In this document: positions 7,095 through 61,088 of the stretch, piece by piece
Numbering within the stretch: position 1 is the stretch's first letter
Layout: every line of letters begins with the position of its first letter
Source of the DNA: Carboxylicivirga marina
GTDB taxonomy: Bacteria > Bacteroidota > Bacteroidia > Bacteroidales > Marinilabiliaceae
DNA: 64,000 nucleotides
Assembly: GCF_016612505.1 (NCBI RefSeq)
Contig: NZ_JAENRR010000013.1
Coordinates: 1-64,000, forward strand
Direction: 5' to 3'
The notes under the pieces: generated by a model
Seen by the model: only the letters and a program-made list of their open reading frames with translations
The model's database searches: none
What the model was told of the DNA's origin: nothing
Program-made: the position numbers and the translations under genes

Positions 7095-9317
7095 TCATCC
7101 TTGAACCCAGTTCTCTAATCTTTGTTCAAATGCAAGTTTCAACTCATCGATATAGCCGTATGATTCATCATCAATTCGCACTTCTCCTTTCGTAACGTGT
7201 CCTAAAATCGAAAACGGAACCTGGGTACTCATCATAAAATCAACAAAATCATCTTGTTTTTCTGGTGAGACCGAGACAACCACACGACTCTGGGATTCTC
7301 CAAACAAGAACGCTTCTTTTCTGATTTCGGCATCTGATGTGATATCAAAGCCAAATTCTAATGGAATGCTCGACTCCAGTAGACTAAAAAATAATCCTCC
7401 GTTTGAAACATCATGTACTGAACGAACAAGACCATCCTTGATCATTTCTGTAACTGTTGATTGCAGTTCTTTTTCTTCTTCGGAGTTATAATATGGCGCT
7501 GCTGATTTTTTAATATTTAAGATGCTACTGGCATATTCAGAAGAATTCACATCATTTCGAGATTGACCAACTAGAAAAATCATATCTCCTTTATGTCGGA
7601 ATGATAAAGTATTATGGTGCTTCTCGTCGTCGACCACCCCAACCATACCAATAACGGGTGTTGGTGTAATTGGCTTGAGCTGTCCATTTTCTGAACGTTG
7701 ATTATAAAAACTCACATTCCCACCAACAACAGGCACACCAAAATCATTACAGGCTTTTGTTATTCCCTTAACAGAATCAACAAATGTGCGATAAACCTTT
7801 GAATCATATGGATTACCATAATTTAGACAATCGGAAAGAGCAATAGGTCTACCACCTGCACACACGATGTTACGTGCTGCTTCAGCAACTGCTATCTGCG
7901 CCCCAATTAATGCATCTGATTTCATATAACGCGAGTTACAATCCATCGTTGCCACAAGCGTTTTTTCTGATCCTTCAATATTTACAAATGCTGCATCGGA
8001 TGGGTAATCAAAGTTACCATTATCGGAGTTTGTTTGGCTACTAAACTTATTGGTCAGCCACCCCTTGGATGCCACATTAAGATTAGAAAGCATCACCTTC
8101 ACTACATCAGGATAATGATCGGGCTCATCATAAATATCCAAATTTATTGCGGGCAATTCCTCAATATCTTCATCAATATCACGCTCATACACCGGAGCAG
8201 ATTTTCCATTCATCGCAATATCAACAGGCATCTCAGCAACCACCTCTTTTTCACTAAAGCACATCACCTTACCATCATCCGTCACTTTACCAATAACAGC
8301 CATAGCAACCTGCAAGCGTTCTATAATAGATTTTACTTTTTCTATTTCTGAAGGAGCAATACATACCAATACTCTGCCCCATGTTTGCGACAACAACAAA
8401 TCTTTCACTTCCAGACCTTGTTGACGCTCTGGAATGGCTTCAACATCCAGGTGGATACCTGAATTACCTCTCCCTGCCATTTCTAAAGCAGCTCCAACAA
8501 CTCCTTGGGTACCTATCGGCTGAATCCCAACCAAATCTACAGATGCACTCATTTGTTGTATGGCCTCGAGGAGTTCCTTTTCAATGGATACATCCATCAT
8601 CTGTTCAATTGAAACAGGTGGCGTATCTATTTCGGCTAATATATCTGTTTCAAACACATCGGTATCAACTCCATCTTTACCTGTGCGTGCACCTACAACC
8701 AAAATCAAATTATCAGTTCCTTCGGCCTTACCATTAATCAATTTGTCTTTTGGCACTACGCCAATAGCCATATTATTAACTATAGGAGTAGTATTGTAGC
8801 CTCTCGAAAAGAAAGTTTCTCCGCCTAACACAGGCACTTCAAAACCACGCTCAAACTCACAAATGCCCTCTGCTACTTCTTCAAAAAGCCAACGAGCCGT
8901 ATCGCGTTTGCCATCACCAAAACGAAGCGAACTTAAAATAGCCGATGGTTTAGCTCCCATTGAAAAAATATCACGCATAACAACACGCAAACCAGTTAAA
9001 GCTCCTAATCGTGGCTGTATAGCACAAGGACTATTATGTGACTCCACCTTAAAAACACAAGCATTACCATCACCCAAATCAACCACACCGGCATTATCAT
9101 CACCAGCCTTCACCAGGATATCTTCCCCACCCTTAGGTAAAGTAGCTAACCATTTGATTGAATTTTTATAACTGGCATGCTCTGACCACAATCGTGAAAA
9201 TAATTGTAATTCTAAAGAGTTTGGATGACGACCCAAAAGCACTTTTATCTTCTCAAATTCTTCTGAAGTCAACTCTAACTTCTCAGCTTCTTCTATTGTA
9301 GGAATTGTTACGCTCAT
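7095..9317 (-). CDS. purL: Phosphoribosylformylglycinamidine synthase subunit PurL (small form)
   Basis: Catalyses the ATP- and glutamine-dependent conversion of FGAR to FGAM, step four of purine synthesis. I start it at 9317 (MSVTIPTIEEAEKLEL), because the 17 codons upstream are a non-conserved extension. The 740 residues match the small PurL, which works with separate PurS and PurQ subunits, not the 1200-1300-residue fused enzyme. Family motifs include RLWSEHASYKNS, FKVESHNSPCAIQPRLGALTG (quoted here as FKVESHNSPCAIQP) and VVGGNVSFYNQ. PurS and PurQ are not in the window. An inverted repeat at 9444-9475 lies between it and the divergent SDR gene. Confidence 0.94.
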   Translation of the reverse strand: MSVTIPTIEEAEKLELTSEEFEKIKVLLGRHPNSLELQLFSRLWSEHASYKNSIKWLATLPKGGEDILVKAGDDNAGVVDLGDGNACVFKVESHNSPCAIQPRLGALTGLRVVMRDIFSMGAKPSAILSSLRFGDGKRDTARWLFEEVAEGICEFERGFEVPVLGGETFFSRGYNTTPIVNNMAIGVVPKDKLINGKAEGTDNLILVVGARTGKDGVDTDVFETDILAEIDTPPVSIEQMMDVSIEKELLEAIQQMSASVDLVGIQPIGTQGVVGAALEMAGRGNSGIHLDVEAIPERQQGLEVKDLLLSQTWGRVLVCIAPSEIEKVKSIIERLQVAMAVIGKVTDDGKVMCFSEKEVVAEMPVDIAMNGKSAPVYERDIDEDIEELPAINLDIYDEPDHYPDVVKVMLSNLNVASKGWLTNKFSSQTNSDNGNFDYPSDAAFVNIEGSEKTLVATMDCNSRYMKSDALIGAQIAVAEAARNIVCAGGRPIALSDCLNYGNPYDSKVYRTFVDSVKGITKACNDFGVPVVGGNVSFYNQRSENGQLKPITPTPVIGMVGVVDDEKHHNTLSFRHKGDMIFLVGQSRNDVNSSEYASSILNIKKSAAPYYNSEEEKELQSTVTEMIKDGLVRSVHDVSNGGLFFSLLESSIPLEFGFDITSDAEIRKEAFLFGESQSRVVVSVSPEKQDDFVDFMMSTQVPFSILGHVTKGEVRIDDESYGYIDELKLAFEQRLENWVQG

Positions 9318-53653: not shown

Positions 53654-54291
53654 CTACTTCACAATTACTACCGATGGTGTTAGTACTTCTACTTCGGGCA
53701 GCACTGCACTTTCGCCAGCATAATTACAAGCACTTGAATAGATATAATCTTCGGGCTGGTGAACCAGGCCGGCACGTACAGGGTTCATATGTATATAATC
53801 CACTTTTTGCGTTACAAACTTATCAGAATAAACATGCATAGCATGGTCCTCGTGTGTCCAAACCTGATAATGTGAATTGCGCTTATGTCTTAAGGCAGCT
53901 TGTCGAAATACTTTCAACAGCCACTCAGAACGACTTTCATTGTCCTGCTCAATGTATTGAATAAAATTTTTACTGGTATAACTCTTAAAATCGCGAATAG
54001 TATTACTTAACTGACCACTATTACTTTGCACCAATAAATGTATATGATTACTCATGATGACATAGGCATAAACAATCAAACCTTTGTTAGCTATACAAAA
54101 TTTTAAGTTATCGATCACAATATCACGATAAATCTGACGAGAAAATAAATCTACCCAACTTACTAGCTGTAAGGTGATAAAATATGCGCCTTCTTGATTA
54201 TCTATTTTATACCCGGTACTCATACAACGAAGATACGTTATTAAATAAATACCTAATCGATTATGCATTTACAGGCCAGAGGCCTTGTTAT
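53599..54291. mobile_element. REP/RAYT element (complete unit)
   Basis: The transposase gene lies between inverted hairpin ends. The left end has a REP, CGTAGCG-TCT-CGCTACG (53606-53622), then CAAGGCCTCTGGCCTG (53634-53649). The right end is CAGGCCAGAGGCCTTG (54272-54287), the exact inverse complement of the latter; each is itself an AGGCC/GGCCT hairpin. The REP carries the GTAG tetranucleotide typical of RAYT substrates. The whole unit recurs in reduced form at 55301-55640. The right-hand REP is absent in this copy. Confidence 0.8.
53654..54223 (-). CDS. REP-associated tyrosine transposase (RAYT, Y1_Tnp/IS200-like)
   Basis: A 189-residue single-strand transposase, started at 54223 (MSTGYKIDNQEGAYFITLQ); 15 codons above are probably untranslated. 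The HUH motif is HIH in MSNHIHLLVQ, and the catalytic tyrosine is probably in FKSYTSKNFIQYI. The RAYT-specific tail HMNPVRAGLVHQPEDYIYSS is intact. RAYTs cut and join single-stranded DNA at REP hairpins. The gene is flanked by inverted hairpins and has a close truncated relative 1.3 kb away (one differing residue over the shared N-terminal 61). Confidence 0.9.
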   Translation of the reverse strand: MSTGYKIDNQEGAYFITLQLVSWVDLFSRQIYRDIVIDNLKFCIANKGLIVYAYVIMSNHIHLLVQSNSGQLSNTIRDFKSYTSKNFIQYIEQDNESRSEWLLKVFRQAALRHKRNSHYQVWTHEDHAMHVYSDKFVTQKVDYIHMNPVRAGLVHQPEDYIYSSACNYAGESAVLPEVEVLTPSVVIVK

Positions 54292-56567: not shown

Positions 56568-57149
56568 TTATTGTATAATTTTCTCTAGTAGTAAATTTTC
56601 GTCACTTTCATTACCATGCAATTGAATTTTTACTGTTTTGCTTTTCGCAAAAGCGTTGAACTTTGAGTTTTTTTGAAGTCTCCTGAAGTCGCTCATGATT
56701 TGTTCTAAAAATTCATTAGTTCCTTCAGTTGTATTAATTTCCTTTTCATTCCATAGTAAATCATTTCGTACTGTAAGTGTATTTCCTTTACCTTGATATA
56801 TTTTTAAGTTCTCATAATTCCATATCTGACCTTGTTGAAGCTTTTGGAGACCCTCAGTAATTAAATCACTATCATCTAATTCTTTATATACTGAGTCTAC
56901 TGCCTTAAATTCTCGTAAACCAATTGTTAAGCCTGCAATTCCAAACAATAGTAATGAGATTATTAGTCTTGAAATTTGCATGTTTTCAATTTGGAAATCA
57001 CTATTCAATAAGAATGATATAATTGCTATCGGAATACCCCAATAAACTGAACCATGAAGAAATGCGTATAGCCACTTCTTCTTTCTACGCTCTTCCCATT
57101 TTGAATAGAATTCTTCTTGTTTTTTGCTTAATTCTTTCATGTACGTCAT
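56568..57149 (-). CDS. Hypothetical two-span membrane protein
   Basis: A 193-residue protein started at 57149 (MTYMKELSKKQEEFYSKWEERRKKKW), where GGGAGGT stands 6 nt before the ATG, an unusually strong ribosome binding site for this genome. The N-terminus is charged and helical. Two membrane segments follow (SVYWGIPIAIISFLL, LIISLLLFGIAGLTIGL), then a charged cytoplasmic domain of about 100 residues (QLHGNESDENLLLEKIIQ at the end). I do not recognise the family. It is co-oriented with its neighbours, with a BIME-like repeat at its end. Confidence 0.68.
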   Translation of the reverse strand: MTYMKELSKKQEEFYSKWEERRKKKWLYAFLHGSVYWGIPIAIISFLLNSDFQIENMQISRLIISLLLFGIAGLTIGLREFKAVDSVYKELDDSDLITEGLQKLQQGQIWNYENLKIYQGKGNTLTVRNDLLWNEKEINTTEGTNEFLEQIMSDFRRLQKNSKFNAFAKSKTVKIQLHGNESDENLLLEKIIQ

Positions 57150-57337
57150 TTTTACCTCCCTGTAAATCTTACATATACAACACAATGCCATCTTCTTTAT
57201 CAAGCCTTCAGTATTTTACCAATCCCTCTCTTTGATTTGCTACACCTAAAAACAGCATTCCCTAAAACTACTATAAATCACCGCTCAATGGCGTGAGTAA
57301 AGTCGGATAAATGAAATCCATTAACTACTCATACAAA

Positions 57338-57362
57338 AGGGTGCCATTACATGGCACCCTTA
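57338..57362 (-). terminator. Terminator of the DUF6261-like gene
   Basis: AAGGGTGCCAT and ATGGCACCCTT form a perfect 11-bp stem with a three-base loop. On the minus strand TTTTG follows, a short T tract. Confidence 0.7.
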
Positions 57363-57388
57363 AAACTTACACCAACTGTGATAATTAG

Positions 57389-58117
57389 TTAATTACTGCT
57401 TAGCTGTAAATCGTCAGCATTGTTGCGTCGGCGCCTGATGATGCTGTTGGCCGAATCAATTAACAAAGCCGTTTGGGAGCACAAGTCGGTATACTTATCA
57501 GGGTCAACCTGAATCATGGCTCGCAGATACACCACCAGTCGTTCATTCACAACTTTCCGCAATTCTCTTTTAAGCGATGAAGCATTCTCTGATTGTTGCA
57601 CTGCCGTTCGGCTATTGTTCCAGGCTGCTTCTGCTGTTTTAAATTTTGTCTGCTCGTTATCCAGCTGGCTGCTTAGTTCTTTTAAACCGGGTAACAGTTC
57701 CACTTTAGATGCCACCTCCGGCTTAGCCATATCTTCTAAAAAAGAATCCGTCAAGGCCGACTGCGCTCCATAGGCTTCATTTACCAAATCAAAACCATAC
57801 TTATCAATAACGGCATCTACTTCAAAGGCCGCTTCTCTTACCTGTGCATCCGGATGGTGCAGATAACCCTTTGCCAGGTACAAAAGCGAACGGTAAACAC
57901 CATCGCGTGCCGCATCAAAATTATCCAGGTCCGACTCCGCTCTATCTTTATTAATAGCTGAAAGCAGCTGGTTATTTAATGGCTGAATCTGCCCCTTGAG
58001 CGCAAGCATATGCACATCGTCGGCAGGTGCCTTATCAATTTCATTCAAAATATTCGTTGTTAAATCGGCCATTTCAGCCACACGAATGTCGTTAAATACT
58101 TTACTAATTTTTCTCAT
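57389..58117 (-). CDS. DUF6261-like hypothetical protein
   Basis: A 242-residue cytoplasmic, largely helical protein without signal or membrane segments. I assign it to the DUF6261-type family of Bacteroidota on the basis of length, the MRKISKVFNDIRVAEM opening and the regular helical repeats (e.g. NNQLLSAINKDRAESDLDNFD, DLCSQTALLIDSANSIIRRRR, each in part). No catalytic motif is seen. The C-terminal RRRRNN is a basic patch. The remarkable feature is upstream: five dyad units at 42-bp spacing end 52 nt above its start codon. A role linked to nucleic acid is a guess. Confidence 0.65.
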   Translation of the reverse strand: MRKISKVFNDIRVAEMADLTTNILNEIDKAPADDVHMLALKGQIQPLNNQLLSAINKDRAESDLDNFDAARDGVYRSLLYLAKGYLHHPDAQVREAAFEVDAVIDKYGFDLVNEAYGAQSALTDSFLEDMAKPEVASKVELLPGLKELSSQLDNEQTKFKTAEAAWNNSRTAVQQSENASSLKRELRKVVNERLVVYLRAMIQVDPDKYTDLCSQTALLIDSANSIIRRRRNNADDLQLSSN

Positions 58118-58733
58118 AAATACTTGTTTAAATGATTATTGTGTCGGTGTAAGTTCTTGTCGGATAGCCATGCACGAACATGCAAAGCTTATTTTATGGA
58201 AACGTAACGTCATGTACGCACCTGCATAAGCTTCCTGCCAAAAAAAGAAGCCGTACACAAACGTGCAAAGCTTGTTTTACGCATAAGAGAGCCCATGCAC
58301 GGACGTGCATGGCATGTTTTTTCAAAAAGTGAAGGCATGCACGTTTGTGCATAAATGGTGATTGAGCACTTAAAAGCATTCACCGTTAAGAAGTAAGTTG
58401 ACATGTCTGGTTACAATTGTGTTATCTACTTGTTAATTGCAGAAACACAAAAACGTAACACCTTTTGACACACCTATTTTTCATTTTCTTGACGAATAGC
58501 TGATTTTTGCAGATAAACAACGTCTTTTATGTGATGAAAAATGAATTGTGTTTAACACCTATTATTGAGCCACTAAGAGAAAATGGTCAATTTTCTTTCA
58601 CAAACACCGTTGCACAAGTATTAACAGGACCTTACTTTTGAGTAATAGGCCAAGCCGACAGTTCGCCAATTCGACAGTTCTTACTACCTTTAGCCTTTCA
58701 TTACATAATACACAACAAGAGGAACAGCCACAT
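58118..58733. other. Intergenic region with the dyad array
   Basis: A 616-bp stretch between the DUF6261-like gene (minus) and the glycosyltransferase (plus). Residues 58169-58352 hold the five-unit array. The remainder (58380-58733) is AT-rich and should contain the glycosyltransferase promoter; I see no further gene. Confidence 0.6.
58169..58352. repeat. Five phased dyad units at 41-42 bp spacing
   Basis: Units start at 58169, 58211, 58252, 58294 and 58336, i.e. intervals of 42, 41, 42 and 42 bp. Each begins with a 16-17-bp dyad near CATGCACGnACGTGCAT. Unit 4 has perfect 7-bp arms (ATGCACG-GA-CGTGCAT) and unit 5 perfect 6-bp arms. Units 1-3 continue with AAGCTT plus A/T-rich sequence, and the remaining 15-20 bp of each unit are A/T-rich and poorly conserved. 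The spacing matches about four helical turns. Confidence 0.85.
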
Positions 58734-59480
58734 ATGCAGAATACACGAAACCTGGTCATTATACCCACTTATAACGAGAAGGAAAACATTGAAGCCATTA
58801 TTGATGCGGTTTTTAGCCTGCCTCGTTCCTTCGAGATCTTAATCATTGACGATAATTCGCCCGATGGCACTGCTGATATCGTAAAAGGCTTGATGGAGAA
58901 ACATCCAGAGCAGCTGCATATAGTCGAACGTGAAGGCAAGCTGGGATTAGGAACCGCCTATATTACGGGCTTTAACTGGGCTGTTGAGAAGGCTTATGAC
59001 TACATTTTTGAGATGGATGCCGACTTTTCACATCCTCCAAAAGACTTAATTAACCTGCACGATGCCTGTTTAAATGGTGCTGATATGGCCATTGGCTCGC
59101 GCTACATCTCAGGTGTGAATGTGGTTAACTGGCCCATGGGACGTGTACTGATGTCGTATTTTGCCTCAGTGTATGTACGTTTCATCACCGGCATGAAAAT
59201 TATGGATACCACTGCAGGCTTCAAGTGCTACACTCGCAAAGTACTCGAAACCATCGACCTGGACAATATTAAGCTAAAGGGCTACTCGTTCCAGATTGAG
59301 ATGAAGTTTACCACCTGGAAATTTGGTTTTAACATCGTAGAGGTACCCATTATTTTTACCGACCGTACCGAAGGCACCTCCAAAATGAGTGGCGGTATTT
59401 TTAACGAAGCTGTTTGGGGTGTTATCAAAATGAAAATATCGAGCTGGTTTAAATCCTATAAAAGAGACGAAAGCGTTTAA
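58734..59480 (+). CDS. Polyprenol-phosphate glycosyltransferase (DPM1-like, GT2)
   Basis: A 248-residue GT-A glycosyltransferase that transfers mannose or another sugar from a nucleotide donor to a polyprenyl phosphate. I start it at 58734 (MQNTRNLVIIPTYNEKENIE), with GAGGA 8-12 nt above; 32 codons before it are not conserved. Motifs are IPTYNEKENIEAII, IDDNSPDGTAD (the DxD-like nucleotide site), EMDADFSHPPKDL and KGYSFQIEM. There are no C-terminal membrane segments, as in soluble Dpm1-type enzymes. It lies above pyrC in the same orientation, an arrangement seen in other Bacteroidota. Confidence 0.88.
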   Translation: MQNTRNLVIIPTYNEKENIEAIIDAVFSLPRSFEILIIDDNSPDGTADIVKGLMEKHPEQLHIVEREGKLGLGTAYITGFNWAVEKAYDYIFEMDADFSHPPKDLINLHDACLNGADMAIGSRYISGVNVVNWPMGRVLMSYFASVYVRFITGMKIMDTTAGFKCYTRKVLETIDLDNIKLKGYSFQIEMKFTTWKFGFNIVEVPIIFTDRTEGTSKMSGGIFNEAVWGVIKMKISSWFKSYKRDESV

Positions 59481-59530
59481 GGATATTGGATGTATGACCT
59501 TGGCCGTAAAGATAGATAAGGACGTCAATA

Positions 59531-59588
59531 CTATTGATCTAATGACCTATTGACCTATTGACCTACTAATCTAATCACCTACTAACCC
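59531..59588 (+). repeat. Short low-complexity TGACCTAT-type repeats
   Basis: CTAATGACCTATTGACC and following sequence repeat TGACCTA and CTAATC motifs in near-tandem fashion between the glycosyltransferase and pyrC genes. Function not evident; replication slippage is likely. Confidence 0.45.
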
Positions 59589-59750
59589 AAACATGGACAT
59601 TCAATACAATTATTCTGAACTTAGCAAAGTAGTTCAACCAATTTGAAGCAAAGCTGTTAAACTACTAAACTTTTCAACTCCTTAAACTCTGAACTGGAAA
59701 CTGAATAAGGAAAAACCCATCAACTTTTTAAACTGATAAACTAAGAAGAT

Positions 59751-61088
59751 ATGTCAACGCTACTTATAAAAAACGCCACCATTGTTAACGAAGGAGTCAA
59801 AATCAATGGAAGTGTTTTAATCGAAAACGACTTAATTAAAAGTATTATAGCTGATGGTGATTTACCAAAAGCAGATAAAGAAATTGATGCCACTGGTTTA
59901 CTATTATTGCCTGGTGCCATCGACGATCAGGTGCATTTCCGCGAGCCGGGATTAACACACAAAGCCAATATCGAAAGTGAATCGCGTGCGGCTGTAGCTG
60001 GAGGCATTACCTCATTTATGGAGATGCCAAATACCAAACCTCAGGCTACTAATCATGCTGTTTTGGAAGAGAAGTATGATGCTGCATCGAAAGTATCGCC
60101 TGCCAACTACTCGTTTTACCTGGGGGCTACCAATGACAATATTGATGAAATCTTAAAAACAGATCCTAAAAAGATTTGTGGTATTAAAATATTCATGGGC
60201 TCATCAACGGGTAATATGTTGGTTGATGATGAAGAAACATTGGGTCGTATTTTTGCCGAAAGCCCAACCATCTTAACTACTCACTGTGAAGATGAAACCA
60301 CCATTCAGGAGAATACCACTATTTATAAAAATAAGTTTGGCGAAGACATGCCATTTAAATATCACCCGGTGATTCGTTCATCAGAGGCGTGTTACAAATC
60401 ATCTAAAAAAGCATCGGAATTGGCTCGTAAGCATGGTGCACGTCTGCACATATTACACCTGAGTTCAGCCGAAGAGTTGGATTTACTGGATACAGACCTG
60501 CCTTTAAAAGACAAAAAAGTAACGGGCGAAGTTTGTGTACATCACCTTTGGTTTACCGATTCCGATTACGACAAATATGGCTCGCGTATTAAGTGGAACC
60601 CGGCAGTTAAAGCTGAGAGTGACCGTAATGCATTACGCAAGGGCTTAATTAACCACAAGCTCGATGTAGTAGCTACCGACCATGCACCGCATACCATTGA
60701 GGAGAAGAACAACAAATACTTCAGTGCACCTTCGGGAGGTCCTTTGGTACAGCACGCTTTAGTATCGATGCTCGAAATGGTGAAGCAAGGTATATTCACC
60801 TATGAATTAGTGGTTGAAAAAATGGCACACAACCCGGCCATATTATTTGAAGTTGAGAAACGAGGCTACATACGCGAAGGTTACAAAGCCGATTTGGTAT
60901 TGGTTAATCCAAACGATAGCTGGGAGGTAAAACCAGATAACATCCTTTACAAATGCGGATGGTCGCCTTTTGAAGGCACTACCTTCTCACACAAAGTGGT
61001 GCATACACTGGTTAATGGTCAGTCAGCCTACGCCGATGGCAAAGTCAACACCGAAGTAAGAGGAGAAAGACTTACTTTTGACAGATAA
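59751..61088 (+). CDS. pyrC: Dihydroorotase
   Basis: Zinc amidohydrolase that cyclises carbamoyl aspartate to dihydroorotate in pyrimidine synthesis. The 445 residues are the length of the long (class I) dihydroorotase. Metal and substrate sites are visible: DDQVHFREPGLTHKANI (HxH is replaced by VHFRE, the usual HxR pattern being DxHxHxR in other classes), GIKIFMGSSTG with the carboxylated Lys position, TTHCEDE, LHILHLSSAEEL and TDHAPHT. It follows the glycosyltransferase with a 270-bp gap, so its own promoter is possible. Confidence 0.9.
   Translation: MSTLLIKNATIVNEGVKINGSVLIENDLIKSIIADGDLPKADKEIDATGLLLLPGAIDDQVHFREPGLTHKANIESESRAAVAGGITSFMEMPNTKPQATNHAVLEEKYDAASKVSPANYSFYLGATNDNIDEILKTDPKKICGIKIFMGSSTGNMLVDDEETLGRIFAESPTILTTHCEDETTIQENTTIYKNKFGEDMPFKYHPVIRSSEACYKSSKKASELARKHGARLHILHLSSAEELDLLDTDLPLKDKKVTGEVCVHHLWFTDSDYDKYGSRIKWNPAVKAESDRNALRKGLINHKLDVVATDHAPHTIEEKNNKYFSAPSGGPLVQHALVSMLEMVKQGIFTYELVVEKMAHNPAILFEVEKRGYIREGYKADLVLVNPNDSWEVKPDNILYKCGWSPFEGTTFSHKVVHTLVNGQSAYADGKVNTEVRGERLTFDR

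Follow-up and report, generated by a model that had tools for sequence, protein, structure and literature searches.

The parS/sopC site of the F plasmid comprises twelve 43-bp repeats with ten 16-bp inverted repeats that are bound by ParB, according to the available part of PMC6238139. In Porphyromonas gingivalis, MITE-like elements contain tandem repeats, with a unit of 41 nt in 464/PgRS and 23 nt in BrickBuilt, as the accessible excerpt of PMC4596501 describes, and the 41- and 23-nt repeats also appear in the excerpt of PMC5771137. REPs are short extragenic palindromes usually present in more than 100 copies per genome, and BIMEs are regularly spaced with alternating orientation (PMC2817692, in excerpt). 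BldC forms cooperative multimers on direct repeats, as stated in the available part of PMC5859096.

The locus described here, five dyad-symmetric units upstream of a DUF6261 gene, was found in the window, by which we mean the whole 64-kb stretch of DNA analysed. With sopC, as presented in that excerpt, it shares tandem dyads, a period near 43 bp (here 41-42 bp) and dyads far shorter than the period. However, sopC is a single plasmid site, while the arrays here occur one per paralogous gene. The protein of a sopC-type centromere is ParB, with ParA as its partner; DUF6261 shows no relation to ParB, no ParB-type HTH was recognised in its all-helical model, which has no PDB match at E 0.001, and no ParA was found among the five window proteins scanned.

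The 464/PgRS and BrickBuilt elements are, like our arrays, dispersed tandem repeats of Bacteroidales (41 or 23 nt), but the excerpted descriptions (PMC4596501) mention for them neither an associated protein family nor helical phasing nor a unit specific to a gene. The arrays resemble REPs and BIMEs, as these are excerpted, in being short palindromes outside genes with regular spacing; unlike the REP/RAYT elements in the part of the source available, each of the three dyads searched had few arrays, and the arrays are tied to DUF6261 and not regularly to RAYT. The likeness to BldC is an analogy of mechanism only, namely the assembly of multimers on repeated sites, and the sites, host and protein differ from those in the excerpt. 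The literature searched contained a single mention of DUF6261 and no description of such arrays, in agreement with the initial annotation of this DNA, which knew of no described system. The arrays appear to be a previously undescribed system for regulation or for organising DNA.

Anatomy of the array and its gene

The window contains five units in steps of 42, 41, 42 and 42 bp (Table 1), ending 52 nt before the ATG of a gene whose product matches PF19775 with 67.7 bits against a Pfam curated cut-off of 27. The initial annotation had put the five units at the same positions and spacing, with the same gap to a DUF6261-like gene, and all of this was confirmed, as was the dyad symmetry. The arms of unit 4 are indeed perfect, but they are longer than the 7 bp assigned to them.

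Table 1. Features of the array locus, in positions of the window.
Feature	Position	Strand	Remark
Dyad unit 1	58169..58185		Nearest to the gene
Dyad unit 2	58211..58227
Dyad unit 3	58252..58268		Most diverged; more than 3 bases off the 17-bp consensus
Dyad unit 4	58294..58310		Perfect arms, CCATGCACG-GA-CGTGCATGG, 9 bp each
Dyad unit 5	58336..58352		Consensus in reverse-complement orientation
Spacer 4-5	58311..58335		Near-identical across four same-dyad arrays of two genomes (alignment)
DUF6261 gene, 242 aa	57389..58117	-	PF19775, E 1.4e-18; product predicted to be all-helical
Gene-plus-array cassette	57330..58565	-	Homology limits against Carboxylicivirga sp. A043 (blastn)
ECF-like promoter motif GGTGTTACG-N-TGCAATTAA	58433..58462	-	Faces array and gene; putative function

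When both strands of the window were searched with the 17-bp consensus at up to three mismatches, six matches were found; they all fell within the array, where they hit four of its five units. Only 0.42 matches were expected, and none of 100 shuffled sequences reached at least six. Tandem Repeats Finder at a score of at least 50 did not report the five-unit array.

The divergent gene beyond the array encodes a family 2 glycosyltransferase. Through Pfam scanning of five proteins around the array we found DUF6261, Y1_Tnp, the glycosyltransferase and two proteins without a family. A short tandem repeat (CTATTGAC, period of about 8 bp) is located at 59531-59581, between the glycosyltransferase gene and the next one.

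All 40 members scanned matched DUF6261 and had no other Pfam family in common, and PADLOC and NCBIfam gave only weak matches, each in one or two of the 40. The AlphaFold2 model consisted of helices only (mean pLDDT 90.1, pTM 0.70), and a fold search in PDB gave nothing at an E value of 0.001 or better. Ten PDB sequences matched the family profile weakly, the best (E 0.0083) being a short protein named JUBO2. No DNA-binding fold was recognised in DUF6261, and the family is acidic with a median pI of 5.3. Considering the all-helical model without PDB match and the acidic pI, we do not claim DUF6261 as the array reader: the predicted fold and the acidity would not favour binding of the array, and it seems somewhat improbable that the reader is DUF6261 itself.

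Recurrence and spacing upstream of DUF6261 genes

Rows of palindromes very nearly four DNA turns apart precede DUF6261 genes in many Bacteroidota, and the palindrome is usually specific to the gene. PF19775 was present in 37 of the 71 family genomes, with up to 21 matches per genome (among the matches listed). Across the phylum, 395 genomes were sampled and 12, the window's own among them, had a match, which exceeded the cut-off in 11. The first batch comprised 80 fetched genes and 10 from the window's genome, of which 88 upstream regions were scored, an array being a chain of at least three units at steps of 40-43 bp. Such chains were found in 66 of the 88 regions against none of the 88 shuffled ones, and other bands of four lags gave chains in 0-4 of the same regions. 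Among 89 gene bodies one contained a chain, namely that of L165, whose start had been misplaced. The window's own genome had at least three units at eight of ten scored DUF6261 genes, with differing dyads.

A second family batch gave at least three units at 26 of 51 genes. The family total, with the start of L165 corrected, is 93 of the 140 fetched genes among the matches listed, and the other 47 of these 140 had no array by the chain criterion. The 140 genes came from a best-first list, about ten further genes of which, mostly at contig ends, are outside the count. Start codons were placed by script. L175, with no start found, and one gene with less than 250 nt upstream were left out of the lag profile and chain count; L011, L235 and L313 are outside the scoring, and L165 entered the count only with its corrected start.

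Outside the family, at least three units were found at 14 of 20 DUF6261 genes against none of 20 shuffled regions, while six of the 20 had no array, and none was found at L228 and L302 by the same criterion. Enough sequence upstream was available for 22 named loci, which overlap in part with genes of the other batches; 21 of them had at least three units, including two Ignavibacteriae/Ignavibacteriales MAGs. One query for DUF6261 on plasmids and phages returned one plasmid record and one phage-labelled contig; the Parabacteroides distasonis plasmid gene had five units (steps 42, 42, 42 and 41), and the phage-labelled contig had no array. Arrays contained 3-9 units in the first batch and up to 11 in the second, and their distance to the start codon ranged from 15 to 377 nt over 66 genes.

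A covariance model of unit pairs had matches in 10 of the 71 family genomes. Many of the arrays found with it differ in their stems and keep the same period, and those at L081, L086 and L088 are located directly upstream of DUF6261 genes. For the ORFs in the fetched loci, 43 of 237 upstream regions had at least three units; this control was drawn from fetched loci instead of random genes, and it gives no rate for other genes. By inspection, the 43 comprised 21 DUF6261 genes, four ORFs sharing a DUF6261 array, ten overlapping purposely fetched arrays, four family B loci (described below), two at locus L291 and two unexplained three-unit chains (L260 and L265).

In the 88 upstream regions, which were not pre-selected for arrays, a self-similar 16-nt stretch was found at lag 41 in 43 regions and at lag 42 in 44, against 2.4 and 1.4 in shuffled regions; at lag 40 there were 13 such regions, and at lags other than 40-42 and multiples of these there were 0-8. 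The neighbour-unit distances in the 66 arrays, taken from unit-consensus matches at any lag of 8-70 in arrays preselected with steps of 40-43, fell on 41 bp in 109 cases and on 42 bp in 98, with 15 at 40 bp, two at 43 bp and eight at other values. Even in the 27 arrays with spacer identity of at most 45%, 68 of 75 steps were 41 or 42 (chains being limited to 40-43). Perfect 6-bp stems, found by a search that did not use repetition, had centre distances peaking at 20, 41, 62, 82, 102 and 123 bp (rounded), which means that some units contain a pair of dyads separated by about two turns.

The spacing is thus constrained while the spacer sequence is free, and the pattern fits binding on one face of B-DNA. 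The initial annotation had regarded a lack of recurrence near DUF6261 genes of relatives, or of conserved spacing, as pointing to a chance tandem duplication in decay; neither was seen, since the arrays do recur and the spacing of four turns is conserved also with diverged spacers, and the idea of an array was not refuted. There is good support for a DNA array that is phased with the helix, specific to its gene and tied to DUF6261, and its occurrence is far more general than the window alone could reveal.

Dyad turnover, satellite arrays and the cassette

The consensus units differ among the 66 arrays, 52 of which reach a dyad score of 2.0, and dyads in both orientations were observed by eye within individual arrays. 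At protein identities under 60% the mean unit similarity is down to background, apart from single cases of up to 0.77. In the homologous pairs listed, conservation was 0.642 for dyads and 0.649 for spacers, with single pairs going either way, and a slower evolution of dyads than of spacers was rejected overall. In some pairs the dyads changed on both sides: in L001/L133 (two species, proteins 88% identical) and L189/L193 (paralogues of one genome, 84%), both arms were altered in most units and the spacer blocks were kept. Such two-arm turnover may come either from turnover of specificity or from template-switch correction of palindromes.

The latter process is part of a view of the arrays as a mutational by-product, in which tandem duplication and quasi-palindrome correction by template switching would maintain the likeness and symmetry of the units without selection. 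The spacing, which stays at 41-42 bp while spacer identity drops low, does not agree with this view, nor does the lack of arrays in gene bodies and shuffled sequences, even though the arms change together, the dyads are no more conserved than the spacers, and L136, L184 and L185 consist of near-identical tandem repeats. We consider such an origin very unlikely.

The protein differences between dyad-changed and dyad-same pairs showed no clustering, and no specificity-determining region of the protein was visible. Dyad avoidance between paralogues of one genome was compared in three pairs of 75-90% identity, one of which had too few consensus letters, and seven different-genome pairs, three of which come from one orthologue set, and no conclusion was drawn.

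Copies of the window dyad were found in few places. The window's genome (206 contigs) has a second five-unit array of this dyad, with four steps of 42 bp, at C184:148475-148658, and its neighbouring genes are unrelated. When 14 genus genomes were searched at the DNA level, 13 gave matches, most of which came from a promoter-like sequence next to the array, and the full array of this type was revealed only in the window's genome and in Carboxylicivirga sp. A043 (G004). In the latter, one such array accompanies the DUF6261 orthologue, which is 78% identical, and a second lies elsewhere. Three of these four arrays have the steps 42, 41, 42 and 42; units 1-4 are mostly ATGCAC-AAAC-GTGCAT, and unit 5 is the reverse complement, with a GTTT centre, in three of the four. 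The expectation that the 17-bp dyad itself would recur with DUF6261 genes did not hold beyond the orthologue and the satellite arrays, and other genes carry other dyads.

Three dyads of the window's genome were searched, and each had one further array: the window dyad and the L004 dyad have two arrays each, and the L010 dyad has two and a two-unit fragment. We compared 12 solitary arrays with all 93 DUF6261 arrays, and seven (C184, C111, C121, G4C78, G11C46, G11C3 and G13a) scored 0.81 or above against an array of their own genome; the same-genome array ranked first for five of them and second behind its orthologue for two. The other five had no such same-genome match. Single random array pairs had a mean of 0.47 and a 95th percentile of 0.51, but the best among 93 unrelated arrays reached up to 0.84 (G10C112), so the score alone is weak and exact dyad matches weigh more. 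C149, C121 and G13a, which are satellites or fragments, lie between convergent ORFs, and promoter control is therefore not expected there.

A palindromic repeat that is mobile or selfish, like MITE, REP or BrickBuilt elements, might spread with or without DUF6261, any regulation being incidental. The satellites have the dyad and some spacer sequence in common with the gene-linked array, as such a repeat would, and the C184 array is missing from the corresponding short intergenic region in the two other species compared (G004 and G010). The window cassette also stands in unrelated surroundings in the sister species: at the A043 orthologue locus the fetched flanks outside the cassette do not match the window, and the neighbour gene 58734-59480 has its counterpart at a different place in the A043 genome. 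The P. gingivalis MITE-like elements, whose tandem repeats have similar lengths in the excerpt of PMC4596501, offer a parallel. However, a repeat of this kind is not expected to have so few arrays per dyad in its own genome (three dyads searched), or to keep its spacing strict and its link to the gene throughout the phylum despite unrelated dyads. Moreover, some other homologous locus pairs match to the end of the flank available, and no target-site duplication was seen by eye at the homology-block ends of the window cassette. On balance, we regard a mobile repeat as improbable.

Several elements were observed near the arrays. An IS200-like Y1_Tnp gene (53654-54268, minus strand) is located 3.9 kb from the window array. 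In G003, an eight-unit phased array is immediately flanked by the ORF L268:4714-5244, which by eye resembles a Y1 transposase gene. The C184 satellite adjoins two dispersed repeats (L042, about 8679-8855 and 8937-9102), which are about 160-176 bp long and occur in many copies within the genus, and one copy of a dispersed repeat lies just past the window at C44:64425.

Promoter motif, candidate mechanism and a second array family

An ECF-like motif lies upstream of the array in the window (Table 1), at the same position in the orthologous cassette L159 and also upstream of the array in L010, so transcription of the array as a leader is possible there. The full motif was found in four of 89 DUF6261 genes. 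A TAnnTTTG motif between array and gene was not enriched. The motif GGTGTTACG-N-CTGCAATTAAC, which from its sequence is taken for a putative ECF sigma promoter, was observed upstream of small ORFs in many genus loci (L046-L072).

If the array is transcribed, its hairpins might regulate the DUF6261 mRNA through attenuation, stability or trans pairing with satellite transcripts, and the motif facing the gene in those three loci is compatible with such an RNA leader. Single strands of three arrays fold to long hairpins of -65 to -70 kcal/mol, values given without a shuffled control, and a looser mismatch count in 52 arrays gave 204 G.T against 164 A.C. At consensus-paired positions of 60 arrays, however, G.T and A.C changes were equal (80 against 83; per array 20 to 20, with 20 ties), so there is no wobble preference; together with the occurrence of both dyad orientations within an array, this argues against selection as RNA hairpins. 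Independent hairpins also need no fixed 41/42-nt period, and no Rfam family reached the gathering score in window positions 57000-60000 (best 22.4 bits against a gathering score of 100, E 0.58). A structured RNA family was rejected on the Rfam result and the equal changes at paired positions, and we think a regulatory leader unlikely.

The initial annotation had suggested an operator array or a hairpin-rich leader. The variable distance between array and start codon indicates that, as a rule, the arrays are not classical operators at a fixed position; a leader is possible in the window, where the promoter motif lies upstream, but wobble pairing is not favoured family-wide.

We lean, with modest confidence, towards the array as a scaffold of double-stranded DNA for cooperative protein binding, which would control or mark its own DUF6261 gene with a gene-specific address. 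Dimers of a sequence-specific protein would occupy the dyads along one helix face, about four turns apart; some arrays have a further dyad half-way between, at about 20.5 bp. Cooperative binding would join them to one nucleoprotein complex, and this complex would control or mark the gene. A recognition sequence of its own for each gene-array pair would prevent cross-talk among paralogues of the same genome, and the array copies elsewhere in the genome may be additional binding places for the same protein. Counted against this scaffold are the acidic DUF6261 protein without DNA-binding fold, the varying start distance, the satellites between convergent genes, the genes without arrays, the dyads being no more conserved than the spacers, the lack of clustered protein differences and the G.T excess in the looser count.

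We might further speculate, though this is doubtful, that the arrays act as private addresses: each DUF6261 copy would own a phased array changing rapidly and in concert, the same cognate factor would read matching arrays elsewhere, each gene-array set would form its own bridged or looped complex, and family B, described below, would suggest a general principle in Bacteroidota.

An uncharacterised multi-copy family is linked here to a DNA architecture that is strict in form and specific to each gene in sequence, which provides a handle on protein function. The arrays are also a natural experiment on the divergence of DNA recognition sequences, and their exact helical phasing makes models of cooperative binding testable by simple changes of spacing.

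A second family, family B, was revealed in 28 of the 71 family genomes; it is multi-copy, has no Pfam model and starts with MNAxQRNK. Direct periodicity of 21 bp was found upstream in 25 of 28 genes scored, from 30 loci (L400 and L401 are outside the scoring, and the starts of L385, L390, L391 and L393 are doubtful). Eleven family B arrays have five units or more, and 80 of their 81 steps were 21, the permitted range being 19-23. The direct repeats differ in sequence from gene to gene (L375-L404, e.g. L388, L392, L396 and L402). A coding origin of these arrays was rejected, since stops were about as frequent as after column shuffling, and family B was likewise rejected as a remote DUF6261 relative (hhalign probability 0.5%, with a profile of three sequences only). 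The ECF-like motif lies between array and gene in all 12 of the 28 genes in which both were found. In G010, a 234-aa gene without Pfam family (L291:16-717, minus strand) is located beside the orthologous glycosyltransferase and has an array of 21-bp period, TTGTAGTCTTCCGTTGnnn, upstream.
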